Of a stretch of DNA of 20,226 bases, positions 196 to 15,404 are shown piece after piece. Within the stretch, counting starts at the first letter, position 1. Every line of letters begins with the position of its first letter. The DNA is from a virus. Under the pieces are notes generated by a model, which saw only the letters and a program-made list of their open reading frames with translations, did no database searches and was not told where the DNA came from. Location: positions 1 through 20,226 of the IMG/VR virus record IMGVR_UViG_3300032086_001678; one strand, 5' to 3'. The position numbers were made by a program, and so were the translations under genes.

Positions 196-1851
196 TTATT
201 GACCTTTTCTAGTGGCAGGGAACCAACGGGTACCATACTCATCTACAGTTTCTTCATTCATAGGGTCACTATTGATACCATCATCTACAAACCCAAACGG
301 TGCCATATCTTGTTCAATTAGATTTTGTTGTTCCATATACATTTGATTTCGTATATTTGAATCAGATAATTCTTTAAAATAGGGTTGATTTGAGAGCCAC
401 CCAAATATGACTAAACACATAACCAAGTCATCATTTGTACCCTCTTCAGCCATCCAACTATTCCCTCTACGTGAAAAAGTTGATATTTCTTCTATTATAC
501 TAAAGTCATTGACTTTTAGTTTATCACCCTCCATAAGCGTCTTAAAATTCGCACAGCCCACCTTCTTTATTTGTTTTGTCATACGCACACCAAGTGATGT
601 TCCTCTACCTGAGAACATCGCTCCTAATATTTGACCCGCTCTACCTCTTTGAGTTGTCATTAAGATATTAGGATATTCTAACTCATAATGCATCGCTTCG
701 GCGATTGATTGACCTAAATCATTGACTTCAATTAATGTGTGTGCTTCATTATATGCCTTTGCTGTTTGACTGATAATGTTTGGAAAGACAAAAGGTTTAA
801 CTTCATTGTTCTTATATGTACATACAACTTCGTATGGAATTTTTTTACTTTCATCTTTTGTGACATCTATTATAATAAACGCTGAGTAATCTCTGTTTGT
901 ACCTCTCGCCACATCAACACAACAAACATACATACGACCACTTTCTGGTTTCTTAAACATCTTCAATCCATTTTTAGATTGTAATGGATCAAAGTATGGT
1001 GTGTTTTTAATTTTTGCTGGTGAGATGAGTGTATCAACAGAACCTAAGAACTCACACTCAAACTCTTGCTGAAATTGTTCCTCACTTGTATTACGAATGG
1101 TCATCTCTTTCCATTTTTCATCTCTACCAGGAACTTCTGACCAATGTACTTCTATAGGTATATAATCATTTCTCTTATTGATTGCATCAATCCATAATTT
1201 GTAATATTGATTCATACCGTGTGGAGTTGATACTATAATCATCTTTGTATTTTTACCAGATGAAATAGTAGGATAAACTGAACTAAAAAACATCTCTGCG
1301 ATATTTGCTGGTACGAAAGCAAACTCGTCAAGGAAGATTATGTTAAATGAACCTCCCCGAATAGCAGAACTTGAAGTTGCTGCTGCCACAATAGTTGATT
1401 TATTTTCTAACTCAATATTACCTTTGTTCCAATTGATGATACCTTGTTGCATCCACTTTGGTAAGTTTTCATATGCAAGTTGTAATCTACTTAATATATC
1501 TCTTGCCGTAGAACTTTTGTTTGCAAGTAATGCGATGTTTGAATTTGGATTAAACAAAGCGTAATGTAAAAGATATGAAATCGTTGTTGTTGATTTACCA
1601 GATTGTCTAGGTAGTTTACAAATCGTAAATCTATTATCGTGTATTGTTTGTACAATCTTTCTTTGAAAGTCATACATCTTAAATGGTACCAAACCTTCAT
1701 CAAGCGATACAATTCGTACATAGCTTTCCATAAAATAAATTGGATCGTTTGCACATTTTTGATATTCAATAATCTGTTCTTGTGTAAACTCAACAGGTGT
1801 ATTTACTTTTTTTAGATTAGGATTACCGAGATATGCTTCTACATTAGACAT
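196..1851 (-). CDS. gp17: Terminase large subunit gp17 (packaging ATPase/nuclease)
   Basis: This is the motor that pumps DNA into the prohead and cuts the concatemer. At 551 aa it is somewhat shorter than T4 gp17 (610 aa). Visible motifs in order: Walker A RQSGKST (residues 82-88), Walker B IIFLDE (171-176), a coupling motif around IIVSTPHG (205-212), then an RNase H-like nuclease domain with acidic residues D312 (CVDVARG), E374 (LIEVNDLG) and D473/D474 (EGTNDDLV). All catalytic elements are intact. The ATG at 1851 overlaps the stop of the upstream oxygenase gene by 8 nt, and a possible Shine-Dalgarno (AGGA) lies rather far upstream, so translation may be coupled. The position before gp18 matches T4. 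Confidence 0.97.
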   Translation of the reverse strand: MSNVEAYLGNPNLKKVNTPVEFTQEQIIEYQKCANDPIYFMESYVRIVSLDEGLVPFKMYDFQRKIVQTIHDNRFTICKLPRQSGKSTTTISYLLHYALFNPNSNIALLANKSSTARDILSRLQLAYENLPKWMQQGIINWNKGNIELENKSTIVAAATSSSAIRGGSFNIIFLDEFAFVPANIAEMFFSSVYPTISSGKNTKMIIVSTPHGMNQYYKLWIDAINKRNDYIPIEVHWSEVPGRDEKWKEMTIRNTSEEQFQQEFECEFLGSVDTLISPAKIKNTPYFDPLQSKNGLKMFKKPESGRMYVCCVDVARGTNRDYSAFIIIDVTKDESKKIPYEVVCTYKNNEVKPFVFPNIISQTAKAYNEAHTLIEVNDLGQSIAEAMHYELEYPNILMTTQRGRAGQILGAMFSGRGTSLGVRMTKQIKKVGCANFKTLMEGDKLKVNDFSIIEEISTFSRRGNSWMAEEGTNDDLVMCLVIFGWLSNQPYFKELSDSNIRNQMYMEQQNLIEQDMAPFGFVDDGINSDPMNEETVDEYGTRWFPATRKGQ

Positions 1852-2440
1852 TGTAAGTATACCATCCTGTCATTATATATTTTTCTTTTGTTTTACTAAT
1901 TTGTCCTTTATGAGTATGTGTCCAATCAGCGGGCCATATTATAGTTAAACCTTTTTTTGCTGGAGATATCATATTTTGATATTTAAAATGAGTACCACCA
2001 TCTTCAACATCATTTAAATATGTCATAAAAACTAAAACTCTATTTTTTGTAGAGGGACCTGTTCTCTCAAAATGCCAGTTTTTAAAACCACCATTAGGCT
2101 TATAATACTGTAATTGTAATTCATCATTTATATCAATAGATCCTATGTTATTAGTCTCAGGAAATTTTTCAGTATATTTTATTAAACACTGTTGTAAATA
2201 ATATCTATAACTAACCACTTCTTTTATTAAGAAAGGATTAATTTCATAAGGTATTAGTAAATCTAAACTATCTTTTTTTACTTTATTTTCAACTATCTTT
2301 CCTGACTGAACAATTTTACCAGGTTTAGCATTTACCTTGTAATCTTCATTGTTAAATACTTTTACTAAATCATCACATAGTTTTTCAGGTATATACCAAC
2401 CACCTATAAAACTCTCATTAGGAAAATTATGTTCTTTCAT
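1844..2440 (-). CDS. Fe(II)/2-oxoglutarate oxygenase, HxE type, between terminase genes
   Basis: A 198-aa single-domain double-stranded beta-helix oxygenase. Family members use Fe(II), O2 and 2-oxoglutarate to hydroxylate proteins or small molecules. The first metal motif is WHFER, giving H123 and E125 (HxE rather than HxD), followed by a YLNDVEDGGT strand (141-150). The distal histidine is H175 or H177 in WPADWTHTHKG, and a basic residue about ten positions later (K187) could bind 2-oxoglutarate. The GG-T and WPADWTHTH pattern resembles small 2OG oxygenases I recall from marine phages. It overlaps the ParB-like gene by 14 nt and gp17 by 8 nt, so it is embedded in the terminase operon. Substrate unknown; a protein prolyl or lysyl side chain is one possibility. 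Confidence 0.85.
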   Translation of the reverse strand: MKEHNFPNESFIGGWYIPEKLCDDLVKVFNNEDYKVNAKPGKIVQSGKIVENKVKKDSLDLLIPYEINPFLIKEVVSYRYYLQQCLIKYTEKFPETNNIGSIDINDELQLQYYKPNGGFKNWHFERTGPSTKNRVLVFMTYLNDVEDGGTHFKYQNMISPAKKGLTIIWPADWTHTHKGQISKTKEKYIMTGWYTYNV

Positions 2441-2735
2441 TAACTATTGCCTCTATATGAGTATACCCTAGTCTTTTTGCTTGTGTCACTCTTTGATTAC
2501 CTTTCTCTACACTATATAGTTTTTCCACATAGTGTTTACCACCAGCACCATATCTTTGTGTAGGACTAATCTTATGTTTAAATACCTCAATAGGATTATT
2601 CATCATATCTTTTATATCTTCAACACCATCAGTTAATTTAGGATTATAATTTTCGTAATACCGATTATAAGTTAAATCACTTATCTTTAGTGTCGTCTTT
2701 TTCGGGTGTGATGTCTTTGACTTTAGTATTTTCAT
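2427..2735 (-). CDS. ParB/sulfiredoxin-like domain protein
   Basis: A 102-aa protein. The C-terminal segment GNQRVTQAKRLGYTHIEAIV (about 78-97) has the form of the ParB N-terminal domain signature (G-x-R-v-x-A-k-x-L-G-x-x-x-I-x-x-i-V), and ISDLTYNRYYENYNP near residue 20 would supply the first strand. Such domains occur in ParB nucleases, in CTP-binding ParB and in phage proteins of unknown role. The listed start at 2735 makes the gene overlap gp16 by 59 nt in another frame and has only a weak AG-rich sequence upstream. The first ~15 residues (KILKSKTSHPKKTT) look unlike a domain, so translation may begin elsewhere, but no better ATG lies before the domain. It sits between gp16 and the HxE oxygenase. 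Function unknown; an accessory packaging or nuclease role is inference. Confidence 0.72.
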   Translation of the reverse strand: MKILKSKTSHPKKTTLKISDLTYNRYYENYNPKLTDGVEDIKDMMNNPIEVFKHKISPTQRYGAGGKHYVEKLYSVEKGNQRVTQAKRLGYTHIEAIVNERT

Positions 2736-3147
2736 CTTTTTTCAACATCTTTTGCAACTCTGCCGTAGAGCCTACAAAAAGAGCATTCTTTATATTTTGA
2801 CTTGCTGTTTTAGGGACTTGTTTTAAGTCTTTAAGTTTCTTTTGTAAGTCTTGCAACTTATCTACTGTTTGTCCTACTTGTCCTATGAGTTGACCAGCGA
2901 CTTCATATGCTCTAGGGTGTTGACCCTCTCTTGCTATATCTAATATACCTTCAATCGCTTCTTGTCCTCTTTCAATTAGATTGTAATAATTTTCTCTACT
3001 GTATTTGTAATCGTTATCAACATCTTCTTTTTTATCGTCTTCTCTACGAGGAACAACTGGTTTAAATTCTTGTTTAACAATTTCTTTTTTAGGTTCAGGT
3101 TTATCAATACCTAAAATTTCATTTACCTTTTCTTCTAATTTACTCAT
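2677..3147 (-). CDS. gp16: Terminase small subunit gp16
   Basis: A 156-aa protein. Its core YSRENYYNLIERGQEAIEGI followed by LDIAREGQHPRAYEVAGQLI (about 49-88) is characteristic of the T4 gp16 terminase small subunit, which recognises viral DNA and stimulates gp17. A charged N-terminal tail (residues 1-45) precedes the core. A predicted helical coiled coil (QVGQTVDKLQDLQKKLKDL) follows, consistent with ring oligomerisation, and the C-terminus is Lys/Asp-rich. No Shine-Dalgarno is present upstream of the ATG. Instead a perfect TATAAATA at 3153-3160 is spaced so that late transcription would start at the ATG itself. In T4 gene 16 directly overlaps gene 17; here two extra genes separate them. 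Confidence 0.88.
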   Translation of the reverse strand: MSKLEEKVNEILGIDKPEPKKEIVKQEFKPVVPRREDDKKEDVDNDYKYSRENYYNLIERGQEAIEGILDIAREGQHPRAYEVAGQLIGQVGQTVDKLQDLQKKLKDLKQVPKTASQNIKNALFVGSTAELQKMLKKDENTKVKDITPEKDDTKDK

Positions 3148-3152
3148 ATTAT

Positions 3153-3160
3153 TATTTATA
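3153..3160 (-). promoter_or_regulatory. T4-type late promoter at gp16, probably leaderless
   Basis: The minus strand has a perfect TATAAATA overlapping the stop codon of the preceding halogenase gene. With T4 late spacing the +1 is 3147, the A of the gp16 ATG. The stretch between element and ATG (ATAAT) has no room for a ribosome binding site, so either the mRNA is leaderless or the promoter mainly serves the downstream genes. Confidence 0.65.
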
Positions 3161-4625
3161 AACTTTTTAAAAAATCTGTATGATCCATAGCTTTGTGTAA
3201 ATGTTGAACAACAGTTAATCTGTAATCTTTATATTGTGGATATAAATTTGTGTAAGGATCTAATTTAAATTTCTTATCAAAAATACCTAATCCATCTCCG
3301 ACTTGTAAATAACTTTGTTCAGTAAACATTGCTCTATGACTTCCAAAGTGTAAATCAAATGTTTTTATACCAGAGTTTTTTATATCATTAATTACACTTT
3401 CTATTTTTGGAGGTGGTTTATTTTTATCTCTAAACTCTTTCCAAAAAGGACTGTCATTTCTTTTTGTTAAATAATGAAAGTATAAAAAATTTAGTACACT
3501 ATCATTATCTTCCGTCACTAAATCATTATATAATTTTTTTCTATTAGTATTATTATCAAACATATCAGGTAAAAAATGTAAAAGATGATACAACTGTTCT
3601 ATTGCTAACCATATAGATGTGGCTTCTAAAGGTTCTGTAAATCCAGAAGATAACCCAACAGCAATACAATTATTATTCCACACTTTTTCAAAACGACCTG
3701 CATTAAAATTTATTGTTCTTATATATTCTATATCAGGGAAAACTTCTTTTACTTCATTAAACGCTTGTTCTTCAGTTATATAATCACTATCAAAAATATA
3801 ACCTGCACCATATCTATGTTGTAATGGGATTTTCCATACCCAACCATACTTCATAGCAATCGCTTGTGTATATGGTTTAATTTTTTCTTCTTGTTTTAAG
3901 AAAAAAGGAATAGCTTTTTTTATAGGTAAATGTTTTTGGTAATCTGTCCATTTAGTTTGATAGTGTTTTTGTATTAGTAATCTATGAAAACCACTACAGT
4001 CAAAAACAAAATCACATTTTTGAGAAAAGCCACTTTCAAAATTTAACTGTGTAATATTGTTATGTTCATCAGTATCTACATTTTTATACTCATCATAATG
4101 AAGTTTTATACCTCTTTCAATACCTATGTTTTTTAAGTATTCGGCTAATTTGTGTGCATCAAAGTGATATGAATTTGACATATTATTAATATCAATTTTA
4201 TTATCATAAGATAAGATAGGTGGATAAGTGTGATTATCAATTTTTTTATTATTATTAATTAAGTGTTTTAAATAAAAATTATAACAATCATTTCCAAATA
4301 TAGGTGGAATATGAAATCTATCCAATTCGTTTCTTACTTGAAAAGAATGGAAATACTTTTCATTATCACCATTCCAATTTTCAAAACATATTCCATTCTT
4401 TAATGTACCACCTGTTTGTTTTAAAAGATCGTGGCGATTAATACCTAACTCTTTTAAGAATTTAACTAGTGTTGGAGTTGATCCTTCACCTGCTCCTAAT
4501 ATTCCTACTTTTTTACTTTCAATTAATGTAATATTACAATCTTTAAATATTAGTTTGCTAAATAGTGCTGTTAACCATCCAGCAGTTCCTCCACCTAGTA
4601 TAACAATGTTTTTATCTTTTATCAT
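3156..4625 (-). CDS. Flavin-dependent tryptophan halogenase (copy near gp16)
   Basis: A 489-aa single-component FADH2-dependent halogenase of the PrnA/tryptophan 7-halogenase family. Family members oxidise chloride, bromide or iodide to hypohalous acid via a flavin hydroperoxide and halogenate an aromatic substrate. Visible motifs: FAD-binding GGGTAG (11-16), GAGEGST (44-50), the catalytic lysine K76 in GTLKNG (PrnA K79 equivalent), the halogenase signature W262-V-W264-K-I-P267 and EPLEAT with E334 (PrnA E346 equivalent). Length and motif order are complete, so the gene is probably active. Its ATG overlaps the stop of the oxygenase gene upstream in an ATGA. No flavin reductase is visible, so reduced flavin would come from the host or from elsewhere in the genome. 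The cyanophage halogenase VirX1 is a characterised precedent with broad iodination activity. Substrate here unknown. Confidence 0.93.
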   Translation of the reverse strand: MIKDKNIVILGGGTAGWLTALFSKLIFKDCNITLIESKKVGILGAGEGSTPTLVKFLKELGINRHDLLKQTGGTLKNGICFENWNGDNEKYFHSFQVRNELDRFHIPPIFGNDCYNFYLKHLINNNKKIDNHTYPPILSYDNKIDINNMSNSYHFDAHKLAEYLKNIGIERGIKLHYDEYKNVDTDEHNNITQLNFESGFSQKCDFVFDCSGFHRLLIQKHYQTKWTDYQKHLPIKKAIPFFLKQEEKIKPYTQAIAMKYGWVWKIPLQHRYGAGYIFDSDYITEEQAFNEVKEVFPDIEYIRTINFNAGRFEKVWNNNCIAVGLSSGFTEPLEATSIWLAIEQLYHLLHFLPDMFDNNTNRKKLYNDLVTEDNDSVLNFLYFHYLTKRNDSPFWKEFRDKNKPPPKIESVINDIKNSGIKTFDLHFGSHRAMFTEQSYLQVGDGLGIFDKKFKLDPYTNLYPQYKDYRLTVVQHLHKAMDHTDFLKSL

Positions 4626-5197
4626 ATTGCGTTATAATTTATTACACATCTTTGAGTTTTTTTAGGTTGTTCAGCAGTATGCCAACGATAACCATTAAAC
4701 ATAACAACTCTACCTTGTTTTGGTTTAATTTTTTTTTCAATAATTAAATCATTAATATTGGGTTTGTCTTTATCCTCACCTTTGTATTTATTTTTGTATA
4801 TAATCGTATCCGCTTCGTTATCACAAACATAATATAAAACAACAAGATGTGGAAAAAAAGAATCAATGTGTGGAGTATCAACCTGTTTTTCATCATCAAG
4901 TTTTAATGGTAATTGAAAAAACGCTCTACCTTGTGTCAAACAAGTATGATTAAAATTTATTTTTTTAAGTGAATTAGTTATTAATGGTAATATAAAAGAG
5001 TGGTGTTTGCTGTTTATTTCTCTATCATCTATAAAGAAGTGTGAAAACCCTGGTCTTTTCTGAATAGTATTATCAGCATAACTAATATCATCTACAAAAA
5101 ACCAAGGAAAGTTTTTACCAAAAAAAGTTTCTTTAATTTTGTTTTGATAATCATTATCAATAACATCATCAAATATATAAATTTCATCACCTATCAT
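4622..5197 (-). CDS. Fe(II)/2-oxoglutarate oxygenase paired with halogenase
   Basis: A 191-aa single-domain 2OG oxygenase. The metal-binding facial triad is visible as H110-I-D112 (TPHIDS) and H173 (RWHTAEQP), with R183 in TQRCVINY positioned to hold 2-oxoglutarate. The strand LVVLYYVCDNEADT after the HxD motif and GRVVMFNGYRWHTAE before the distal histidine fit the prolyl-4-hydroxylase-like fold. The gene ends in an ATGA shared with the start of the halogenase gene, so the two are translationally coupled and may act on the same substrate. No Shine-Dalgarno precedes the ATG at 5197; a CTAAATA element lies exactly where a late promoter would put +1 on the ATG. Substrate unknown. Confidence 0.87.
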   Translation of the reverse strand: MIGDEIYIFDDVIDNDYQNKIKETFFGKNFPWFFVDDISYADNTIQKRPGFSHFFIDDREINSKHHSFILPLITNSLKKINFNHTCLTQGRAFFQLPLKLDDEKQVDTPHIDSFFPHLVVLYYVCDNEADTIIYKNKYKGEDKDKPNINDLIIEKKIKPKQGRVVMFNGYRWHTAEQPKKTQRCVINYNAI

Positions 5198-5202
5198 AAT
5201 AA

Positions 5203-5209: not shown

Positions 5210-5220
5210 TCAGTTAAATT

Positions 5221-6027
5221 TTATTCATCTGAGTCCGTTGATGTACTATATTTTTTACCATCTGCATAAGATGTAATAGTTGTTGTAAATCCAAAATCAT
5301 CATCAGCGTCTGCGCTAGTAGGATTAGGAACTACAATAATTCGTTCTTCTCTTGCTTTATTATTTACATCTGTGTCACTATATAAGTCTGCTTGTGTTTC
5401 TTTAATAACCTTGGAAGTATTCGCTGGACCAAATAGATAAGTTTTCGCAGTAAAACCTAAAGTATAAACTACGGCTCTTCTTTGTGAAAAATCACCACTA
5501 TAACTATCTTCATATTGCACACTATTTAAAATTATGGGTACATCTCTTTTTATACTTAATTCAGGTATTGCATTTACAGTCACAGTATAATCAGGTTGAA
5601 AAAAAGGTAATATTTGTTCTATAATTTGTAATCCACCTTCTGCTGTCGCTGTAAATGAATATAGATTATAAGATATGTTATATGGAACAGGTGTGTAATT
5701 ATAATTTAATACTTTACCGTCTATACCTGTTTTAACAGTTTTATATTTTTGTATTCTTGTTAATTTACGAGAGCCATCATATGAAATACCTGTAATCTCA
5801 AATCCCATACGAGGTAAAGTAATAGCAAATTCTCTATCTTCCAAAGATGGTTGTTGATCTAGTCTAGTTAAAAACTTTTCTTTTGGAGCATAAGCTAATG
5901 GAACTCTAATTGTTTGTACTACTGAACCACTAGAGTTTTTTCTTTTAATTTGTATGTTATTAAAGATTTGACCAAATGCAATGGTCATTCTTCTCATACT
6001 TTCGTTATAAAAATATCTTCCAAACAT
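5221..6027 (-). CDS. gp15: Tail sheath stabiliser/completion protein gp15
   Basis: A 268-aa protein close in length to T4 gp15 (272 aa). The N-terminus MFGRYFYNESMRRM and FGQIFNNIQIKRK matches the T4 gp15 start (MFGYFYN...LFSNIQIKR). The segment IIEQILPFFQPDYTVTVNAI (about 134-153) matches the gp15 IVEQILPYFQP motif, and the RRAVVYTLGFTAKTYLFGP strand follows. gp15 forms a hexameric ring capping the tail tube and sheath and connects the tail to the neck. It directly follows gp14 (TAG-ATG adjacent), preserving T4 order. It is the last conserved structural gene before the inserted oxygenase-halogenase pair. Confidence 0.94.
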   Translation of the reverse strand: MFGRYFYNESMRRMTIAFGQIFNNIQIKRKNSSGSVVQTIRVPLAYAPKEKFLTRLDQQPSLEDREFAITLPRMGFEITGISYDGSRKLTRIQKYKTVKTGIDGKVLNYNYTPVPYNISYNLYSFTATAEGGLQIIEQILPFFQPDYTVTVNAIPELSIKRDVPIILNSVQYEDSYSGDFSQRRAVVYTLGFTAKTYLFGPANTSKVIKETQADLYSDTDVNNKAREERIIVVPNPTSADADDDFGFTTTITSYADGKKYSTSTDSDE

Positions 6028-6813
6028 CTAAAAATCTACATCTCCAAATGGATTACGTTCTGTAAAATCTAATATATCATCTGCAGTTGATGCTGTATCA
6101 AAACCTGCTTCTGTATCTAAATCTAAATTATCAGCATATAATGATTGTGTCTGTAAGTTGTAAGTTTCTAATAACATATAATTACTTTCACCATCTGCTG
6201 CATCGTTTTCTAATAATAAAGCACCACTTTCATTTTCTAAACTAACTTGATGTGCTAATTGATCTAAAGAATATTGATCTTCAGCACTATCAATTGTACC
6301 AACGCCTGTATCAATTTGTTCTGAACTATATTCCCATCTAGTACATACTAATTTGTAAACTGGTAGTTGACCTAGTTGAAAGAATGGCTCTTGGTCTTGT
6401 ACAAATTGTATCTCAAAAAAACTATTCATCAAAGGCATATAAATTATATCGCCTTCGTTTGGTCTACCATCTTTTATTAATGTGGCTTTTTCATCAACGG
6501 CATCATTAAATCTTCTTTTAGAGATCATAAAGGTAGTATCTTCTCTAATCTCTAAACCAAACTTATTAATAATCTCTTGTTCGCCTGCGAAACCTTCTGT
6601 TGTTTCCATATACGCTTCTACTAATAAAGCAGAAGAGAATTTAGACAACATATCTTCGCCTAAAATTAAATCTCTATTTACAAGTGTTCGTGGTAAGTAA
6701 TATACATCTTGGCCATATATCTTTAGGCCCTCTATGATTAAATCTTCATAAAGTCTTTTTTCTTCGGAACTACCTATGCCCTTACCTGCTTGAAAATAAT
6801 GGTTAACGGCCAT
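6028..6813 (-). CDS. gp14: Neck protein gp14
   Basis: A 261-aa protein similar in length to T4 gp14 (256 aa). The sequence around NHYFQAGKGIGSSEEKRLYE and IYGQDVYYLPRTLVNRDLIL followed by GEDMLSKFSS (residues 4-61) corresponds to the T4 gp14 region with YYLPRE, LIFGEDL and SRFS. gp14 with gp13 builds the head completion/neck that joins the filled head to the tail. The C-terminal third is acidic and low in complexity (LETYNLQTQSLYADNLDLDTE), and the protein ends NPFGDVDF. The gene starts 4 nt after the gp13 stop and is immediately followed by gp15. Confidence 0.92.
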   Translation of the reverse strand: MAVNHYFQAGKGIGSSEEKRLYEDLIIEGLKIYGQDVYYLPRTLVNRDLILGEDMLSKFSSALLVEAYMETTEGFAGEQEIINKFGLEIREDTTFMISKRRFNDAVDEKATLIKDGRPNEGDIIYMPLMNSFFEIQFVQDQEPFFQLGQLPVYKLVCTRWEYSSEQIDTGVGTIDSAEDQYSLDQLAHQVSLENESGALLLENDAADGESNYMLLETYNLQTQSLYADNLDLDTEAGFDTASTADDILDFTERNPFGDVDF

Positions 6814-6817
6814 GGCA

Positions 6818-7624
6818 TTATCCTATCATCATTGCTGGATTTAATTCGTATGAACTTCTTATTTCTTGCTCAAGTTTTTCTATATCCGATAAAGCTTCAG
6901 AATACAATTGTTGTCCGTTTAATGATACACCACCAATCATAGCAACGCCATTAAATTTAGATAAGTTTGCTCCCCATTGTTTTTTAAACAACGCAGTGAC
7001 ATATCTTTTTAAGTATAAGTCGTTATATACATCTGTATATGTTTCAGGATCTAATTTTCTATAACACTCAATTACCATATATTCACCAACGGCTAAATCA
7101 TTTTTCCAATCTTGGTCAATATATAATCTATTATCGTGTTGATTAAATCTCAATGGTTTTTCACCAACAAGTACGTGATCTAAAAAATCTAAATGTCTTA
7201 ATACAACATCATAATTAATTATTGATGTAGAAGAAAAATCGTAAAGGTCATTTAATCTTAATTGGTATCTTACATCAAATAAGTTTAGATTACCTTTGTT
7301 TGAAAATGGAAAGATATTAATTACTGATATTACACTTTCAGGTACTACAATAAAACTATTACCCTCTTTCCAAGCAGTTGTCACAGAGTTTTTAGTGACT
7401 GATTCAGATGAGTCAGCGTTTATTCTATCGTAATCTGCTTGTGTGTATTGATACTTTAAGTATGTTCTTCTTATACCGTCATAGTGATATTGTGCGAAAT
7501 ATTGTAACGCTTCATCAATTCTATCTTCTAATTGGTCGTCATCAGCGTTAACTTCTATGACTGGTTTTCCGAGCGCTCTTAAAGCGTATTGTTTTAATGT
7601 TTCTCTACTTGATGGTGTTGCCAT
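6818..7624 (-). CDS. gp13: Neck protein gp13
   Basis: A 268-aa protein, slightly shorter than T4 gp13 (309 aa). The N-terminus SRETLKQYALRALGKPVIEV and the following DDDQLEDRIDEALQYFAQYH are the typical start of gp13 proteins of marine T4-like phages. Later segments include FIVVPESVISVINIFPFS and LDPETYTDVYNDLYLKRYVT with KKQWGANLSKFNGV. gp13 is needed with gp14 for head completion before tail attachment. The ATG has a GAGG ribosome binding site and lies about 20 bases after a perfect late promoter, giving a predicted leader of about 15 nt. It opens the conserved gp13-gp14-gp15 block. Confidence 0.93.
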   Translation of the reverse strand: MATPSSRETLKQYALRALGKPVIEVNADDDQLEDRIDEALQYFAQYHYDGIRRTYLKYQYTQADYDRINADSSESVTKNSVTTAWKEGNSFIVVPESVISVINIFPFSNKGNLNLFDVRYQLRLNDLYDFSSTSIINYDVVLRHLDFLDHVLVGEKPLRFNQHDNRLYIDQDWKNDLAVGEYMVIECYRKLDPETYTDVYNDLYLKRYVTALFKKQWGANLSKFNGVAMIGGVSLNGQQLYSEALSDIEKLEQEIRSSYELNPAMMIG

Positions 7625-7663: not shown

Positions 7664-7666
7664 GTA

Positions 7667-8681: not shown

Positions 8682-8692
8682 TGTCTTTTTTA

Positions 8693-9904
8693 TTAGAAAC
8701 TAAACAACTCAAATTTACTTTGTTGTGTCCCATTTGCCTTTGTAAAACTAGTAAATACTGATGCATTTGAAGACCCTGCTGCCATTGTAAATGTAGTTGC
8801 TGCTGAGCTCAAACCTCCAGCGTTTGTAAAGAAAGGTACAGATTTAGTTACCACACCTGTTTTCGAATCTGCCTGAGCAATACTTTCACTACCTACTTTA
8901 GAACCCGTAGGTAAAGTGACACCTGTAGCAGACATAGCGATTGATCCAGTTCCGTCTGAACTAATTGTTGCCCCACCTAAATTGATTGTGTCACCTGAAA
9001 GAAATAAATCACCCCAACGTTTTGACGAACTACCTAAATTTCTTGTGCCATTACCATCAGGTATAATATCTTGGTCTACAGCAGATAAGTCACTTGCGAC
9101 TTCACCGAAGTCATATTTACCTGTTGATGAATTATATTTTAAAGCATAACCATTTTGTTGACCTGAAATATCAACATCGTCCATATTAGATATTTTTGTA
9201 CTACCACCACCACCAAGTGATTGTAATTGAAGTGTTGTAAGTTGTTTAAATTTACTAAACTCTGCTGTAAGTTTATCTAAACTTGTTTCGCCAGATTCAA
9301 TATCTTCTGTTATTGATTTAGCTTGTTTAGTTAACTCTTTTAATATAGTATCTTTATTATTAATATCTGTATTAGCATTTTCGTAAATCTGGTCTTGTTG
9401 TAAACTTCTAACTGGTTGTGTATTTGTTTCAATAACTTTTTTAACATTATTTACTAAATCTTCAGATACTATACTTGTTCTTTGTTGTTTAGCCACAAAT
9501 TTAGTAAAGTCATTTTCTGTAATATTAGTTTTAACAATCTCATCTGTTTGAAATTTATTTACAGCGCCTGTTAATTCTTTTAAAGTGTTTAATAGTTTTT
9601 CTTCGTTAACAGATTTTTTGGTCTTAACATTTTCATCAACATTATCAAATTTAGGTAATTCAAATAATTTTTTAAGTTTATCTTGTTTTTGTTGTTCTGT
9701 TAATATCTCTTTTTCTAAATTTTCTTTTTCTTTAACTAGTTGTTTAATTTCTTCTTCTTGTTTTTTATCTAAAACTAATTCTAATTCTTCTTTTTCTTTT
9801 AAAAGTAATTGTATTTCTATATCTTGTTGCTTATTATATTCTTCTTCTAATCTTTTCTTTTCTGCTTGTAATTCTAATATTTCTATATCTATGTCTTTTG
9901 TCAT
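8693..9904 (-). CDS. Coiled-coil fibre/whisker-like structural protein
   Basis: A 403-aa protein with two parts. Residues 1 to about 85 are almost wholly Glu/Lys/Leu/Gln heptad-like sequence (repeats such as LLLKEKEELELVLDKK and LVKEKENLEKEILTE), a long predicted coiled coil; further helical sequence runs to about 225. After a GGGGS hinge, a beta-rich C-terminal half carries TRNLGSSSKRWGDLFLSGD, a motif seen repeatedly in tail fibres of marine T4-like phages, and ends KFELFSF. The gene starts at an ATG sharing one base with the stop of the BppU-like gene (TAATG). The coiled-coil rod plus position near gp13 suggests a whisker or fibre analogue of fibritin. That is inference; no homology to fibritin can be claimed by eye. 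Confidence 0.72.
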   Translation of the reverse strand: MTKDIDIEILELQAEKKRLEEEYNKQQDIEIQLLLKEKEELELVLDKKQEEEIKQLVKEKENLEKEILTEQQKQDKLKKLFELPKFDNVDENVKTKKSVNEEKLLNTLKELTGAVNKFQTDEIVKTNITENDFTKFVAKQQRTSIVSEDLVNNVKKVIETNTQPVRSLQQDQIYENANTDINNKDTILKELTKQAKSITEDIESGETSLDKLTAEFSKFKQLTTLQLQSLGGGGSTKISNMDDVDISGQQNGYALKYNSSTGKYDFGEVASDLSAVDQDIIPDGNGTRNLGSSSKRWGDLFLSGDTINLGGATISSDGTGSIAMSATGVTLPTGSKVGSESIAQADSKTGVVTKSVPFFTNAGGLSSAATTFTMAAGSSNASVFTSFTKANGTQQSKFELFSF

Positions 9905-10254
9905 TAGATTTTCGTAGCCTCTGGAAGAACTGTTATAATACCATTATGTACTTTTTCAATAGTTGAATCTGCTAATATTAATTCTACATCATATACATAA
10001 CGACCTGAGTCAATAGCAGCTGTGACTGTATCTGTAAGTGTTAATTTATATGTTCCCGCTGAACCTGAAACAACAGTACAAGTAAAAGATGCTGTTGCTG
10101 TTGAAGAAGAAAAACCTTTTCTCATTTGCGCTTGTAAAGTACGACCACTAATATCGTATGCAGTAGATCCATCAGTTGTGACTGTTAATGTTCTACTAAA
10201 ATCTGCGCCTTGATCTATTGTAAAATTTTCAGCTGTTTTTTGTGTGACTGCCAT
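9904..10254 (-). CDS. BppU-like small baseplate/structural protein
   Basis: A 116-aa all-beta protein. The order DQGADFSRTLTVTTDGSTAY with DISGRTLQAQMRKGFSSSTA (about 14-53), then GTYKLTLTDTVTAAIDSGRY and VYDVELILADSTIEKVHNGI, follows the pattern of the BppU/phage baseplate upper protein N-terminal fold found in many phage structural genes (x-D-Q-G, D-x-T/S-G, M-R, G-x-Y-x-Y-D-v). Such domains attach receptor-binding parts to the tail. A possible ribosome binding site (AAAGGG) lies inside the end of the upstream gene, which it overlaps by 26 nt. The downstream fibre gene overlaps its stop by one base, so the three genes look co-translated. Predicted virion component. Confidence 0.7.
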   Translation of the reverse strand: MAVTQKTAENFTIDQGADFSRTLTVTTDGSTAYDISGRTLQAQMRKGFSSSTATASFTCTVVSGSAGTYKLTLTDTVTAAIDSGRYVYDVELILADSTIEKVHNGIITVLPEATKI

Positions 10255-10459: not shown

Positions 10460-10479
10460 ACTTTAATCACCTATTTTAT

Positions 10480-10487
10480 TATTTATG
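10480..10487 (-). promoter_or_regulatory. Near-consensus late promoter (CATAAATA)
   Basis: The minus strand reads CATAAATA, one mismatch from the T4 late consensus, in the 28-base gap after the oxygenase gene. Predicted +1 near 10474 leaves a leader of about 15 nt with AGGTGA as ribosome binding site. It would allow the fibre block to be transcribed independently of the enzyme island. Confidence 0.6.
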
Positions 10488-11114
10488 TTATTTTAAGTCT
10501 AATATAAATTCTTTTTTACCCAATGTTCCTCTTACAAAAAAGTTAAATGCGATAGAATATCTTTTTTCACTAGTTTTGTTTCTTTCTACGCTATGTTCCA
10601 AATGTGATGGAAAAAGAACTATTGATCCTTCTTTTATATCTACAGTACAAAAATCACAATTAATATTATCGTGTTCTTCATACTCTATTTTAATACAAGG
10701 GTGAAATAGATTAGTGAGTAAATGATTTTTATGAAATGTTATATTACCAGAGCCATCAGGAAAAATTGGATAATACACTCCACTTATCAAAGAATTTCCG
10801 TGATAATGAAGCTGTGATTCATCATTAGGATTATGTATATTAACCCAAGAATTTTGTAAATAAAATTCTACATTGTTTTTTATACGTAGATATTTTTTTA
10901 CAAATATCTCACAATGATTTTTAATTTTTTCTTCTAAGTCTTTTAATTCTAAATTGTTTTCAAAGATATAACGATCTTTTGTTATGTCACTATTACCAAT
11001 AGGTGTTCTCTCATAATCAAAATTTGTTATTATATTTTTCCATTTTTGTTCAACAGGTATCTCTGCTTCATAAACAGGAGTTGGCCATAAATTACGAACT
11101 TTAAACTGTGGCAT
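10488..11114 (-). CDS. 2OG-Fe(II) oxygenase-like protein, TIGR02466 type (HxH)
   Basis: A 208-aa protein of the putative 2OG-Fe(II) oxygenase family that starts with a W-P-T-P-V-Y element (residues 10-15) and has HYHGNSLISGVYYP, then LFPSHLEHSVERN and RYSIAFNFFVRG. Candidate metal ligands are H103 and/or H105 and the distal H174; R185 fits the 2-oxoglutarate arginine. The usual HxD aspartate is replaced by H105, so the metal site is atypical or uses another acid. The start codon lies inside the end of the halogenase gene (14-nt overlap, different frame), so the two are translationally linked and may share a substrate. It closes the enzyme island. It resembles the first gene of the same island (14757-15404) in family. 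Substrate unknown. Confidence 0.8.
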   Translation of the reverse strand: MPQFKVRNLWPTPVYEAEIPVEQKWKNIITNFDYERTPIGNSDITKDRYIFENNLELKDLEEKIKNHCEIFVKKYLRIKNNVEFYLQNSWVNIHNPNDESQLHYHGNSLISGVYYPIFPDGSGNITFHKNHLLTNLFHPCIKIEYEEHDNINCDFCTVDIKEGSIVLFPSHLEHSVERNKTSEKRYSIAFNFFVRGTLGKKEFILDLK

Positions 11115-12567
11115 ACATCGCTCTTATTGCTTTTAAATATGTTTTATGTTTTACTTGAGGAACATTTAAATTGTTTTTATATTCGTTCATTCCTATATCA
11201 AAATGTTTTCTATGTTCTTCATTAAAAGAGTTATATAAGATTTTTATATTTTCTTTGTTAAGTAAATCTAAAGCATATAATATTTGAGAATAGTTATGTT
11301 CTAAAAACAAGTAATAATTTGTTTCTCTAAAATCATCTCTAATAGGTAATCTAGTTTGCCATCTTTCTATATTCTCTCTTAATGTATCAGGTATCTTCAT
11401 AGTTTTTAAATCTTTCCAAAAACTAGTGTCATCTCTTTTTGTAATATAATGTAAAACAATAAAATCTCTAATATTGTTCATTATCAATTCCATTTTATAA
11501 TTATAATCATCTATTATCTTTTGATTATAGTTATCAAACATATGTATAAACAAAAACATTTGATTTATAGATGTACCTATTGATGTTGCTTCTAATGGTT
11601 CTACAAAGTTAGCACTTAATCCTACTGCCAAACAATTTTTAATCCAAGGTTTATCTAAACAACCAGGATCAAACTTGACGTGTTTTCCTATATCTATTTT
11701 ATGTCCTAGTGTTTCTTCTATTTCTTGTTTTGCGTCATCGGCACTTATGTAATCACTATCAAAAATATAACCATTACCCCAACGACCATAAGTGGGAATA
11801 TGCCAAGCCCAACCATATTTCATAGCTCGTGCAATTGTATAAACATTATATTCATCTGTACCATTTGTTGGAAAGGCAATTGCTTCTTTCATTTTTAAAT
11901 ACTTACTATATGATTTCCACTTTGCACCTAATTTAGAAATTAATAATCTTTTAAATCCTGTACAATCAATATAAAAGTCTGTATTGTAATTATTCTTTTC
12001 ACCTTTTAAATTTGATATTTCGCCTTTATTATTTAATTCTACATCAACTATCTCATCATCAATAACTCTTAAACCTTTTTCTATTGATTTTTTATTTAAA
12101 AATTCATTTAACTTAAATGTGTTAAAGTGATATTGATTAGTAGGACAATTGTGTAATTCACTTAATAAAAATTCTCTACCAACTTTGTTTTCCCAAAACC
12201 AAGGATTATTCAATTCTTTTACATCACAGTCTTCATTCATTAACTTTAAATAACTTGCTAAATGTTGTCCGTGTTTAAAGTTTTTTAATTCATTTACATT
12301 ATGTAAAAAATCATTACCTGTCCAATTTTTAAACATAATACCACACTTCAAAGTTGCGTCACATTCAGTAATCAATTCTTTAAAATCAATACCGACAAAA
12401 TCCATAAACTCTTTCCAGTGCTCGGTTGAACCCTCACCAACTCCTATAATACCAATTTTATCTGACTTAATTAGTTGTATATCAATATTACTTCCGTATC
12501 TAGTTTTTAAAATTAACGCAGTAATATATCCGGCAGTACCTCCACCAACTATTGTTATTGTTTTCAT
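11101..12567 (-). CDS. Flavin-dependent tryptophan halogenase (island copy)
   Basis: A 488-aa halogenase of the same family as the one at 3156-4625 but clearly diverged. Motifs: GGGTAG (8-13), GVGEGST (42-48), catalytic lysine K74 in ATLKCG, the signature W253-A-W255-H-I-P258, then GYIFDSDYI (266-274) shared with the other copy, and EPLEAT with catalytic E326. All key residues are intact. The enzyme needs FADH2, which must come from a reductase not seen here. Its ATG overlaps the preceding oxygenase stop as ATGA, the same junction as in the other pair, and its end overlaps the next oxygenase gene by 14 nt, giving a tight oxygenase-halogenase-oxygenase unit. Likely acts on an aromatic side chain or metabolite; the real substrate cannot be read from sequence. 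Confidence 0.93.
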   Translation of the reverse strand: MKTITIVGGGTAGYITALILKTRYGSNIDIQLIKSDKIGIIGVGEGSTEHWKEFMDFVGIDFKELITECDATLKCGIMFKNWTGNDFLHNVNELKNFKHGQHLASYLKLMNEDCDVKELNNPWFWENKVGREFLLSELHNCPTNQYHFNTFKLNEFLNKKSIEKGLRVIDDEIVDVELNNKGEISNLKGEKNNYNTDFYIDCTGFKRLLISKLGAKWKSYSKYLKMKEAIAFPTNGTDEYNVYTIARAMKYGWAWHIPTYGRWGNGYIFDSDYISADDAKQEIEETLGHKIDIGKHVKFDPGCLDKPWIKNCLAVGLSANFVEPLEATSIGTSINQMFLFIHMFDNYNQKIIDDYNYKMELIMNNIRDFIVLHYITKRDDTSFWKDLKTMKIPDTLRENIERWQTRLPIRDDFRETNYYLFLEHNYSQILYALDLLNKENIKILYNSFNEEHRKHFDIGMNEYKNNLNVPQVKHKTYLKAIRAMYATV

Positions 12568-13244
12568 AATTTAGGTAGTTTATTGTTTCCTAACGACAAG
12601 TCACTTCCATCACCTAAAGGGATTGCAAAGTAAAAATGTGTAATAGTATATTTTCCATATCCTGCCTCTTCTGGTTGAGTATGAAATTTTAGAGGCGTTA
12701 CACTATGTAATAAACAACTAGGAAACATAACCATTCTATTATTTTTTAATTTAATTTCATAATTGGGTTCATTTAATAAAAAATCACCACCATCAAATAA
12801 TTTAGGCTCTCTTACCATCCATATTAAACAAGTCCAACTAAAAGAATCATAATGAGGTTTATAATGATCGTTATCCTCATAATAAGATATTAAAGATGTA
12901 TCTTCTGTAGTAGATAAAAAACTACGAGCATAAGGCATAAAATTACCCATAATATCTCTAAATTCTGGTGATCGTTGTTTTTTCATACAATTATAAATTG
13001 GAGATATTAATTTATTATTATAAAATGTTTCTAAATAAAATCTATATGCTGTACTTCTAGGTGAGCCATCTTTATCACGAGCAACAATTGTATCTTCTGC
13101 CTTTTCTAAATATTTTTTAGGTGTTGCACTATAAAAATCTAACTCTTTCCACACAGCCTTTTCTTCATTAGGAGTATACCAATTATCAATAACTAAAGCA
13201 GGGTATAAAGGATTATCTTTTAAAAGTTTTATATTCCAAGTCAT
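12564..13244 (-). CDS. Fe(II)/2-oxoglutarate oxygenase paired with island halogenase
   Basis: A 226-aa oxygenase. The HxD motif is H131-Y-D133 in DHYKPHYDSFSW, and the distal histidine is H180 in MFPSCLLHSVTPL. Strand LIWMVREPKLFDGGDFLL between them carries the family F-x-G-G-x-F element. A 2-oxoglutarate-binding basic residue is less obvious; K200 in YGKYTITHFYFAI is the best candidate. It begins 3 nt after the previous oxygenase stop without a clear ribosome binding site, suggesting coupling, and ends in the ATGA overlap with the halogenase. This repeats the arrangement at 4622-4625. Likely a hydroxylase of a protein or peptide; substrate unknown. Confidence 0.84.
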   Translation of the reverse strand: MTWNIKLLKDNPLYPALVIDNWYTPNEEKAVWKELDFYSATPKKYLEKAEDTIVARDKDGSPRSTAYRFYLETFYNNKLISPIYNCMKKQRSPEFRDIMGNFMPYARSFLSTTEDTSLISYYEDNDHYKPHYDSFSWTCLIWMVREPKLFDGGDFLLNEPNYEIKLKNNRMVMFPSCLLHSVTPLKFHTQPEEAGYGKYTITHFYFAIPLGDGSDLSLGNNKLPKL

Positions 13245-13247
13245 TTA

Positions 13248-13958
13248 TTAATCTATTACTTTTCTAGCATTATTAGTTGTATTATGTTTTTCATATTCGT
13301 TTAATTCTTCATCATTTCTTACAACTTGATCTAATACAGGCATACCTAAAAGGGGTCTACCATCAAAAGGAATATCGTATTTACCACCAGCTTCATTATA
13401 ATGTAAAAATACTTGAGCGTGATGATTACCTATAAATGGCTCTCTCCAATGTTCTAACTCACAACCACGATATATTACCATATCACCTGGTTTCATATAA
13501 ACTGGAGTTTCTATACCATTTTTTTCTTTTACATACATAGGCCAATTCCAGTTTTTATCTTCAAGGTTTGAAGTATCATAACCTAAACAAAGTGTAGTTG
13601 AAATTTCACAACTTGGTCTATCTTTATGTCTTTTTAACTCTGTACCATTTGTATAAAGTCTATGATAAGAATATGTAGGAACTAATTTTAATCCAGTTAA
13701 ATCTTGCATCTTTCCTAAGCCTAAACTTAAAAAAGCATCAAAGATAGGATCACCATATTTACTAAAGTCACCTGGAGCTTGATCGTCAGTAAAGGTGCCG
13801 TTATACGCCATATCAACTCTAATATCATTTTCTTCGTAATAACTTAATCTAGCAGTTTCTAATTGAATATGATGATAAAATAAATTGGCCATACTTTGGT
13901 CAATATAATTATCTATCTTAACCCAACTATGTTCTTTAAAAAATTTTGCCGCACTCAT
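13248..13958 (-). CDS. Fe(II)/2-oxoglutarate oxygenase-like protein
   Basis: A 236-aa protein. ELKRHKDRPSCEISTTLCL supplies the HxD motif H111-K-D113, and PGDMVIYRGCELEHWREPF supplies the distal H170. The Arg normally found ten residues after the distal histidine is not obvious (GNHHAQVFLHY follows), so cosubstrate binding may differ. The N-terminal KFFKEHSWVKIDNYIDQSMA resembles the entry helix of phage hydroxylases of this group. The start is supported by AAAGGAG directly upstream and by a CTAAATA element at 13977-13983. The next gene starts 3 nt after its stop. Probably catalytic, with a protein substrate as one possibility, but the missing basic residue lowers certainty. Confidence 0.78.
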   Translation of the reverse strand: MSAAKFFKEHSWVKIDNYIDQSMANLFYHHIQLETARLSYYEENDIRVDMAYNGTFTDDQAPGDFSKYGDPIFDAFLSLGLGKMQDLTGLKLVPTYSYHRLYTNGTELKRHKDRPSCEISTTLCLGYDTSNLEDKNWNWPMYVKEKNGIETPVYMKPGDMVIYRGCELEHWREPFIGNHHAQVFLHYNEAGGKYDIPFDGRPLLGMPVLDQVVRNDEELNEYEKHNTTNNARKVID

Positions 13959-13976
13959 TTTTACTCCTTTTTATCT

Positions 13977-13983
13977 TATTTAG
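13977..13983 (-). promoter_or_regulatory. CTAAATA late-promoter-like element
   Basis: The minus strand reads TACTAAATAAG between the PKHD-type hydroxylase stop and the oxygenase starting at 13958. T4 late spacing puts +1 near 13971, immediately before the AAAGGAG ribosome binding site, a geometry like that of the perfect promoter at 8674-8681. Function is inferred. Confidence 0.5.
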
Positions 13984-13986
13984 TAT

Positions 13987-14748
13987 CTACACAAATGGTC
14001 TTCCTAGTGTCCATAAAACTAGAGAGTATCTTGTTCCTTTAGTCACAGGAGTTACCTGATGATATACAAATGATGGAAATATAACGATTGATCCTTGAGG
14101 TCTTATTTCTGTACATTCGTGGAAACGTTTTCCTTGATTATGTGGACCAAAATCAAACTTTAAATTTCCACCTTCATATTCACCAGGTTTATTTAAATTA
14201 ATTGTCATAGATAGTTTACGAATTTTTCCTACCATATCAGGAACTGTAGTATAACCTTTAGGTATTTCACCATCTGGCCCTGTTTTAGTAATACCTGGAA
14301 TATATCTTTTATACTTTCCATGGTGACAACTCTCGCCATCTGCGTGCCAACCATAAAATTGATTAGGTCCATATTTGGTAAATTGAAAAGTCTCACTGTA
14401 ATCAAATTGATATTTCCAACCAGAATCATTATTTGCCTTATGTAAAAAAGGATATACTAAATCATATAACCATTGATGATTTAACCAAGATACTTCACTA
14501 TCTCTAATGTAACTTTTCTTTTCTTTTTCTTTTCTTAAATCTTCTACGGTTTTATCTGCTTGAGGAGAAACGGGTTCACCTAATTTTTCTAAAGCTTCTT
14601 TGTGACCACCATCAAATGTAGTTGCAACAGTAGACCCGCCTGCTTTTTTAACACTATCAATTTGAGATAAACCTAAATCAATAATTTTTTGACATTGATC
14701 AGGTGTCAAGGCAGATTCAATATAATAATATGAATTGTGTATCATCAT
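13987..14748 (-). CDS. PKHD-type prolyl 4-hydroxylase-like oxygenase
   Basis: A 253-aa protein matching the PKHD-type hydroxylase (PiuC/YbiX-like, prolyl 4-hydroxylase superfamily) pattern. FQFTKYGPNQFYGWHADGE gives H135 and D137; KLSMTINLNKPGEYEGGNLK gives the central strands; GSIVIFPSFVYHQVTPVTKG gives H230, and R240 in TRYSLVLWTLGRPF is the 2-oxoglutarate arginine. All four catalytic positions are present, making this the most canonical oxygenase of the set. A charged insert (EDLRKEKEKKSY, about 69-80) precedes the core. Two ATGs start the gene (MM); a CTAAATA element places +1 about 4 nt before the first. Homologues occur in other marine T4-like phages; substrate unknown, with protein proline a candidate. 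Confidence 0.9.
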   Translation of the reverse strand: MMIHNSYYYIESALTPDQCQKIIDLGLSQIDSVKKAGGSTVATTFDGGHKEALEKLGEPVSPQADKTVEDLRKEKEKKSYIRDSEVSWLNHQWLYDLVYPFLHKANNDSGWKYQFDYSETFQFTKYGPNQFYGWHADGESCHHGKYKRYIPGITKTGPDGEIPKGYTTVPDMVGKIRKLSMTINLNKPGEYEGGNLKFDFGPHNQGKRFHECTEIRPQGSIVIFPSFVYHQVTPVTKGTRYSLVLWTLGRPFV

Positions 14749-14756
14749 TTTACTTA

Positions 14757-15404
14757 TTATTTAGATAGGCTGAAATTACCAGATACACTAATACGCTCTG
14801 CGTCAACCCAATACGGTGAAACATAATGTTTTAATTGTGCTGGAAATATAAACATTAAATTTTCATAAGGCTCAATGGGATAATCATTACCCATTAGACT
14901 AGTTATATTTTCACCATATGAAAAAGTAATTTTTCCTGCACTTTGATTATTACTGTCTGCTTGTGTTTTAAATATTTCTGGTGGTACCTTACAAAATATC
15001 ACAAAAGACAAAACACCACTATGTGCATGTGGTGGATTAAAATCGTGTTTTTGAGAAAAATTAATCCACAATTCATCTAATTTTAATGGAGTAATTTTAT
15101 CTGTCATTAACGAATTACCATATAACTTATCTATTCCATCACAAAATCTTTTTACATAGATTTTTAAATATGTTTCTGATCTTAATTTAAATGATTCTTT
15201 AAAACGATATGATCGTCCGTATTTCAAATTACCTGCTAATTGATAATTCCAATCGTCTTCTTCTTTTGTAAGTTTACGACCTTCTACAATTAATTGATTT
15301 GTAAAGTTGCTATCAACTTCTGTTTGAAAAATAGGAGGACTAAATGGATAAATTATATTATCGCCAGTTTCCGTACTTACTGTAGGGACATTTGTATAAA
15401 ACAT
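14757..15404 (-). CDS. 2OG-Fe(II) oxygenase-like protein, TIGR02466 type (HxH)
   Basis: A protein of 215 aa from the ATG at 15404; a TTG at 15410 would add two residues but has no better ribosome binding site. IIYPFSPPIFQTEV near residue 17 is the P-x-P-I/V-F/Y opening of this family. FNPPHAHSGVLSFVIF gives H126 and H128, and MFIFPAQLKHYVSPYWVDAE gives H193, with R204 in ERISVSGNF fitting the cosubstrate arginine. As in the protein at 10488-11114, HxH replaces HxD. It is the first gene of the enzyme island and is followed by the PKHD hydroxylase with an 8-nt gap. No ribosome binding site is apparent. Function as an oxygenase is likely but not certain, and its substrate is unknown. Confidence 0.75.
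   Translation of the reverse strand: MFYTNVPTVSTETGDNIIYPFSPPIFQTEVDSNFTNQLIVEGRKLTKEEDDWNYQLAGNLKYGRSYRFKESFKLRSETYLKIYVKRFCDGIDKLYGNSLMTDKITPLKLDELWINFSQKHDFNPPHAHSGVLSFVIFCKVPPEIFKTQADSNNQSAGKITFSYGENITSLMGNDYPIEPYENLMFIFPAQLKHYVSPYWVDAERISVSGNFSLSK
14758..14764 (-). promoter_or_regulatory. CTAAATA late-promoter-like element
   Basis: The minus strand reads ATCTAAATAAT, overlapping the stop codon of the preceding oxygenase. T4 late spacing puts +1 near 14752, four bases before the PKHD hydroxylase ATG at 14748. No ribosome binding site would be included. Function is inferred. Confidence 0.4.

Follow-up and report, generated by a model that had tools for sequence, protein, structure and literature searches.

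The window analyzed here, meaning the whole stretch of DNA studied, is the IMG/VR virus record IMGVR_UViG_3300032086_001678, a 20,226-bp genome fragment that we assign to an HTVC008M-like T4-like pelagiphage by its homologous gp13–gp17 genes in order (63% identity for gp13 and 63% for gp17); counts of gene content cover this fragment alone. It encodes two flavin-dependent halogenases (FDHs) of family PF04820, here called A and B, and seven 2-oxoglutarate (2OG) oxygenase-like proteins, together with a Gly-rich tail adhesin. Our favored reading, to which we give about an even chance, is that these genes belong to a late, optional island whose enzymes tailor the receptor-binding tip of the adhesin, chiefly by prolyl hydroxylation, with halogenation as the weaker part of the proposal. 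Gene linkage in related loci and residue covariation together point to a named candidate substrate and residue, the prolines of the Gly-rich adhesin. The genes central to the argument are the following.

1844..2440, minus strand: 2OG oxygenase (HFE...H) between gp16 and gp17; PF13640, E = 3e-9.
3156..4625, minus strand: halogenase A (PF04820, HTVC008M-type) between gp15 and gp16; E = 6e-113, 55% identical to HTVC008M PrnA.
4622..5197, minus strand: 2OG oxygenase (HID...H), overlapping halogenase A by 4 bp; phrog_274, E = 4e-33, with PF13640 below cut-off.
10488..11114, minus strand: 2OG oxygenase-like protein of PF13759 type (HYH...H), overlapping halogenase B by 14 bp; E = 2.2e-23.
11101..12567, minus strand: halogenase B (PF04820); E = 5e-103, AlphaFold2 (AF2) model with a predicted local distance difference test score (pLDDT) of 90.
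12564..13244, minus strand: 2OG oxygenase (HYD...H), overlapping halogenase B by 4 bp; PF13640, E = 8.5e-9.
13248..13958, minus strand: OX5, a probable 2OG oxygenase with a prolyl-4-hydroxylase-like fold, called "ferrochelatase" in PHROGs; phrog_2954/3531, AF2 model (pLDDT 89) and Foldseek.
13987..14748, minus strand: 2OG oxygenase (HAD...H); PF13640, E = 1.2e-13, and alignment.
14757..15410, minus strand: 2OG oxygenase-like protein of PF13759 type (HAH...H); E = 4.6e-12.
15424..15888, minus strand: x154, a conserved gene between adhesin and oxygenases; homologs in 19 loci and in Mosig EXVC030M (Mosig_00061, E = 8e-31).
15930..17396, minus strand: Gly-rich tail adhesin, the proposed substrate, with a He_PIG immunoglobulin-like domain (PF05345, E = 1.6e-9) and a Gly_rich_2 domain (PF21722, E = 1.9e-21); phrog_2295/863 (phrog_2295, E = 5e-57).

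The adhesin is followed by the oxygenases and a halogenase in one tight gene run, an arrangement that recurs in unrelated phage backbones. Its PF21722 domain carries GGGGxGG-type repeats, and the Gly domain (residues 249–488) is 39% Gly and 5.8% Pro, with a single Trp (in NPPNWG). In Pam3 gp24 and S16 gp38, Gly-rich domains of this kind have been proposed to form the tip that binds the receptor (PMC9608196).

Two samples of related loci were assembled blind to the enzymes: anchoring on gp13 and gp17 gave about 157 distinct T4-like loci, and a scan for the adhesin C-terminal motif gave 76 adhesin loci in varied backbones. Among 87 gp13/gp17-anchored loci, the gp15–gp16 interval was empty in 68 and held inserts in 19. 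All but one of these inserts (18 of 19) were made solely of Gly-rich adhesin, 2OG or halogenase genes, and every insert with an adhesin also contained a 2OG gene (9 of 9; Fisher p = 5e-8). Genes for 2OG oxygenases, OX5, halogenases and adhesins shared the gp13–17 strand in 216 of 218 cases in this sample. The association also has a direction: in the adhesin-anchored sample, at positions +2 to +6 genes downstream of the adhesin, as many as 27% of the loci reaching that far had a 2OG gene, compared to 1 of 244 positions upstream. In podovirus-type backbones among loci anchored on OX5, three 2OG genes and OX5 directly precede a phrog_3287 virion protein. For halogenases, we scanned 32 complete or long halogenase-bearing records with Pfam profiles. 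Thirteen had a Gly_rich_2 match, and in 8 of these a halogenase lay no more than 1.5 kb from the Gly_rich_2 gene, where random placement of the halogenase clusters (20,000 draws, maximum 6) gave an expectation of 1.25, the records not all being independent lineages.

It is unlikely, in our estimate, that the region between the fibers and gp13–gp17 is simply a recombination hot spot that gathers unrelated auxiliary genes with separate host-metabolic roles. Such a hot spot would agree with the variable number and place of 2OG and halogenase genes among close relatives, and with the 2OG/nitrogen model of Sullivan et al. 2010 (PMC3037559). It does not account for gp15–gp16 inserts that in 18 of 19 cases hold adhesin, 2OG and halogenase genes alone, for 2OG genes that lie downstream of adhesins rather than on both sides, or for the covariation of adhesin proline described below.

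Proline content of the Gly domain follows the presence of 2OG genes. In the adhesin-anchored sample it was 6.8% for adhesins with 2OG genes (n = 19) vs. 1.9% for those without (n = 40; p = 4e-8), and loops of the form PPxSPxQG were present in 10 of the 19 but only 1 of the 40. Pooling all loci gave 5.8% vs. 2.1% (120 and 48 dereplicated domains, p = 1e-17), while proline elsewhere in the same loci was about equal (4.0% with 2OG genes, 4.2% without). The difference was also seen within the GC 0.34–0.40 bin (5.9% vs. 1.8%, p = 6e-6), in the means of 40%-identity clusters (p = 8e-12), and in a regression that included GC content, background proline and length (t = 6.3 for the 2OG effect). About a dozen residues were tested for a difference in the Gly domain, and proline showed by far the largest and most significant one. 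Given 2OG genes, the presence of a halogenase was accompanied by more Trp (1.03 vs. 0.40%) and more His (1.94 vs. 0.61%) in the Gly domain, and the His enrichment held at the cluster level (p = 4e-4 to 1e-3).

Several results weigh against adhesin tailoring or narrow it. Lys, Thr, Arg and Phe also differ with 2OG presence, less strongly than Pro, and just one sequence cluster holds both 2OG states, so the proline association may be confounded by lineage. Most Gly-rich adhesins in the adhesin-anchored sample have no 2OG genes, and in within-locus shuffles the adjacency of adhesin and 2OG genes at distance 1 did not exceed chance. The distance-1 shuffle shows no enrichment since other genes intervene and the 2OG genes group with one another; we replaced it with the interval, direction and placement tests given above. 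Regarding the halogenases, the Trp enrichment is borderline at the cluster level (p = 0.03–0.06) and in many halogenase loci the adhesin's Gly domain contains no Trp at all; on both grounds we rejected the view that Trp of this domain is the only target of the halogenases. Most 2OG clusters, moreover, have no halogenase, which was present in just 2 of 80 OX5-anchored loci. Finally, the halogenases of Syn1, S-PM2 and S-MbCM6 and the third S-RIM44 copy sit in the hli/talC/psbA region, and the halogenase/2OG groups of four loci (L068, L076, L245, L396) lie between UvsW-, gp47- and gp46-like genes, away from fibers (the placement of the L068/L245 group beside gp46/47-like and helicase-like genes was read from sequence). 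These placements constitute a second, non-fiber context, for which the adhesin model offers no explanation.

The possible lineage effect bears on a related reading, in which the linkage is real but the substrate is another fiber or assembly protein and the proline difference belongs to adhesin lineage. The single mixed cluster and the further differing residues speak for it, as does a C-terminal tail, invariant between two fibers of each genome, that could serve as a recognition site. We nevertheless regard it as improbable, given that the proline difference is the largest, persists both among cluster means and inside a GC bin, and comes with background proline that is about equal. The tail in question is shared by the window proteins at 7667–8656 and 18168–18692, which are otherwise dissimilar, and follows the pattern [KPTNAS]FAIAQA[VI]ALG. 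The pattern has 46 matches across related loci (a few being copies of the same contigs), usually in fiber proteins of T4-like pelagiphages, and the tail might serve in docking, capping or recognition.

The sparse halogenase content of OX5 loci also changes the picture drawn in the initial annotation, which had described one dedicated halogenase-hydroxylase module and named co-occurrence in relatives as a check. Co-occurrence held in one direction: all nine halogenase loci of the gp13/gp17-anchored sample contain 2OG genes, vs. 65 of 148 loci without a halogenase, and 2OG genes were present in 66 of 79 halogenase-anchored loci. Because halogenase loci have 2OG genes but few OX5 loci have a halogenase, the oxygenases appear to be the core and the halogenase an option, and a single module is not upheld, all the more as some halogenase/2OG groups are located elsewhere. 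Nor is the high density of these genes unusual among marine T4-like phages; Syn9, P-RSM6 and freshwater phages equal or exceed the window. In freshwater contigs, 20 kb can contain about a dozen 2OG genes and as many as five or six halogenases, and PF04820 matches fall at five places in each of two records (G013 and G020), some being fragments. Halogenases of several clades occur within the same islands. The claim that virion fibers or adhesins are the target fared better. Downstream 2OG placement, the gp15–gp16 inserts, halogenase proximity and proline covariation all agree with it at the level of sequence, and make the adhesin the likeliest candidate target of the enzymes.

Both halogenases match PF04820 over their full length and retain the GxGxxG motif, GWxWxIP and the catalytic Lys, at invariant column K74; the earlier description of complete catalytic motifs is thereby confirmed, and by family both are predicted to be intact flavin-dependent halogenases. 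The family matches of the window enzymes far exceed what chance would give. The two halogenases are about 35% identical to each other and fall into separate supported clades, A grouping with HTVC008M and B in a clade shared by P-SSM2 and S-H38. The AF2 model of halogenase B matches PyrH (template modeling (TM) score 0.88) and AbeH, indicating a PrnA/PyrH fold. Halogenase B is 23–24% identical to the Syn9 pair, and neither window halogenase belongs to the VirX1-type clade of Syn9/Syn10. The label "tryptophan halogenase" is here a mere family name, because the signature motifs of Trp-FDHs, among them ATFSTV, HPFER and YYHGFxxYS (PMC8269204), were looked for in both proteins and are missing. At the first two positions A has GSTPTL/HSFQV and B has GSTEHW/HNVNE, and the C-terminal motif is partly alike in B alone. 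Free-tryptophan halogenation was accordingly rejected. In S-PM2 (NC_006820.1, 121319–122608), the halogenase frame contains one in-frame TAA, and a later record, LN828717, annotates the gene.

Tailoring of a small molecule would be the more conventional role for such enzymes: a host metabolite, for example a halo-indole, could be made or altered as an exclusion, lysis or antibiotic factor. Bacterial FDHs classically work on small molecules, VirX1 takes many small aromatics (PMC8407142), some phage halogenases sit in metabolic regions, and cyanophage prnA has been speculated to give antibiotic protection (PMC2984593). However, profile searches of the window found no biosynthetic scaffold genes, and a small-molecule role predicts neither the adhesin/fiber association across backbones nor the covariation of proline with 2OG genes. 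We judge it to have a low probability.

The count of seven oxygenase-like genes was borne out. Six are backed by Pfam and/or PHROGs profiles and the seventh, OX5, by its fold and conserved residues. HxD/E...H, the metal ligands of the Fe(II)/2OG oxygenase superfamily with its double-stranded beta-helix, are found in five of the seven, and the two PF13759-type genes (10488–11114 and 14757–15410) have H-x-H...H where HxD/E is usual, which makes their ligand assignment putative. For OX5, a Pfam search gave no match, and the sole profile matches were phrog_2954/3531, "ferrochelatase." In an alignment of its homologs HxDR and H170 are invariant, and residues of the EHWR region are invariant or nearly so. 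The best Foldseek matches of the AF2 model were Pseudomonas putida prolyl-4-hydroxylase (P4H) and human PHD2; these are the closest solved folds, but at only about 15% identity and a TM-score of about 0.5 by query length. The P. putida prolyl-4-hydroxylase acts on EF-Tu. We counted OX5 as the seventh 2OG oxygenase because of the conserved HxDR/EHWR residues and the prolyl-hydroxylase-like model; OX5 and its homologs (PHROG 2954/3531, in many cyanophages and pelagiphages) are most likely 2OG oxygenases with a prolyl-hydroxylase-like fold. A heme or ferrochelatase role was rejected, as OX5 has no ferrochelatase domain and its predicted fold is of the 2OG prolyl-hydroxylase type. PHROG labels are misleading for other 2OG genes as well: families 274 and 2297 (e.g., 4622–5197) are labeled "DNA endonuclease V" and "DNA endonuclease" yet match 2OG oxygenases, and the labels have been carried into RefSeq phage annotations. 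These names were the sole hint of DNA modification, which we dropped.

Under adhesin tailoring, prolines and possibly other residues in the Gly-rich loops would be hydroxylated during virion assembly by the 2OG enzymes, or at least by those that resemble prolyl hydroxylases, with 2OG, O2 and Fe(II) drawn from the host. Host FADH2 would feed the halogenases, whose targets may be aromatic or imidazole side chains, either of that adhesin or of a fiber protein next to it. The hydroxylation step appears the better supported of the two. A modified tip would alter receptor binding or loop stability, and we propose that the enzyme set would for this reason be swapped along with the adhesin. The fullest form of the idea, a swappable cassette that places hydroxyproline on Gly-rich adhesins, joined in certain lineages by halogenated aromatic or His residues, as a collagen-like chemistry that tunes or diversifies host recognition, seems to us possible but rather less probable than its failure. 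If true, a viral receptor-binding protein would have a tunable chemical layer invisible in the genome sequence, with a bearing on host-range prediction; the halogenases of marine phages would gain a rationale; and the widespread "ferrochelatase" of pelagiphages and cyanophages would be relabeled.

For 15–20 years, catalogues of metabolic genes in marine T4-like phages have included 2OG oxygenases and PrnA-type halogenases. Both 2OG genes and prnA are listed as cyanophage auxiliary genes (PMC3037559, PMC2984593), and the 2OG genes and "ferrochelatases" co-located in pelagiphages have been read as auxiliary metabolic genes (Wittmers et al. 2022; PMC9599517). The predicted fold of OX5 does not support that reading where it takes the partner to be a ferrochelatase. 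When S-TIM4 was evolved experimentally, 20 genes acquired mutations, most of them coding for virion proteins, chiefly of tail fibers and baseplate; one of the 20 was a 2OG gene whose product is absent from the virion, and the authors took its mutation as a nutrient response (PMC6224464). A literature search, covering work outside subscription papers, returned nothing connecting 2OG oxygenases or halogenases, or hydroxylation or halogenation, to phage adhesins or fibers. What is new, as far as could be tested, is the linkage to the adhesin together with its direction, the covariation of proline, and the changed assignment of OX5.

The nearest isolate is Pelagibacter phage HTVC008M (Kyanoviridae; halogenase A 55% and gp17 63% identical). 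It has the order gp13-gp14-gp15-[2OG]-gp16-2OG-PrnA-gp17 and a cluster of 2OG and "ferrochelatase" genes just upstream of gp13, but that cluster is on the opposite strand, and HTVC008M has a single halogenase and lacks both halogenase B and the adhesin-linked run of the window. The cyanophages Syn9/Syn10 (VirX1), P-TIM40, P-RSM6 and S-RIM44 share the sequence of Gly-rich adhesin genes, two tandem halogenases and a 2OG run; their halogenases, however, are of other clades (21–26% identical to halogenase B) and stand in tandem after the long fibers, not in gp13–gp17. Two cultured pelagiphages have a similar order. In HTVC023P, with a podovirus backbone, adhesins gp60–gp62 are followed by two small genes and then 2OG, 2OG and OX5, and T4-like Mosig EXVC030M has a fiber, adhesin, x154, 2OG, OX5 and further 2OG genes ahead of gp13; unlike the window, neither has a halogenase within the stretch examined.

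Outside phages, bacterial PF04820 loci also combine a surface receptor, a halogenase and an iron oxygenase. In loci such as L405 (Bowmanella), a TonB receptor, the halogenase and an Fe-dependent cupin/JmjC-like oxygenase (Cupin_8) adjoin; none of these halogenases exceeds about 37% identity to halogenase B, and the receptor is a TonB transporter. Among 77 chromosomal PF04820 loci, a TonB-dependent receptor was present in at least 44, Cupin_8 in 8 and SapC in 3 (e.g., L405, L424, L430). The same loci are what favors the view that the phage enzymes act on the host rather than on the virion, altering a surface or receptor protein, for instance for superinfection exclusion. The phage loci have no host receptor gene, and the linkage is to the phage's own adhesin, whose sequence covaries, so that we consider a host target quite improbable and retain the adhesin as the candidate.

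The remaining virion genes of the window are:

196..1851, minus strand: gp17, large terminase (phrog_2).
2677..3147, minus strand: gp16, small terminase (phrog_445).
5221..6027, minus strand: gp15, tail sheath stabilizer (phrog_227).
6028..6813, minus strand: gp14, neck (phrog_460).
6818..7624, minus strand: gp13, neck (phrog_211).
7667..8656, minus strand: tail fiber with C-terminus ...NAFAIAQAVALG (phrog_26292 and related).
8693..9904, minus strand: fiber-like protein with a coiled-coil N-terminus (weak phrog_36222/13853; position and sequence).
9904..10254, minus strand: LtfC-like (L-shaped-tail-fiber-assembly-like) protein (phrog_3304, E = 1e-15; weak PF23926).
18168..18692, minus strand: fiber-like protein with C-terminus ...KPFAIAQAVALG, upstream of the adhesin (phrog_25848, E = 1e-3).

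In order of transcription on the minus strand, a wedge/fiber C-terminus and small virion proteins are followed by the adhesin, x154 and four 2OG genes (15410 down to 12564), then by halogenase B, a 2OG gene, a small gene, the LtfC-like gene, two fiber-like genes and gp13. After gp13, gp14 and gp15 come a 2OG gene, halogenase A, gp16, a small gene, a 2OG gene and gp17. Both halogenases and all seven oxygenases thus share the strand of gp13, gp14, gp15, gp16 and gp17, as first described for gp13–18; gp18 itself lies outside the window. From 18031 down to the fiber gene ending at 8693, open reading frames either overlap or are separated by no more than 41 bp, so that the adhesin, oxygenases and halogenase B resemble a single transcription unit; the overlaps of halogenases with 2OG partners measure 4 bp for A and 4 and 14 bp for B. 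The motif TATAAATA is present six times, every copy on the coding strand, and its sites include those just upstream of gp13, gp16, a fiber gene and the operon with the adhesin. Its number in the window does not exceed chance (5.3 expected), and late promoters judged by count were rejected; strand and position alone are suggestive. Late expression, as originally proposed, is consistent with these two features, and we infer that the island genes are probably co-transcribed late together with fiber genes.

Other islands show further combinations. In those of L322, L325, L327–L333 and L337, a 20-kb span can hold three Gly-rich adhesins, about a dozen 2OG genes and as many as five or six halogenases drawn from several clades, and GroEL/GroES-like genes lie close by. 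In L355 and relatives and in L081 (S-SSM7), a NodU-type carbamoyltransferase and sugar-phosphate enzymes are added to 2OG and halogenase genes; these islands adjoin Gly-rich adhesins or sit just upstream of gp13, and further decoration of hydroxyl groups is possible there. Between gp16 and gp17 of the window, a small conserved gene of ParB-like appearance (2427–2735), without a family match, overlaps gp16 in a different frame and has homologs in about 91 loci.

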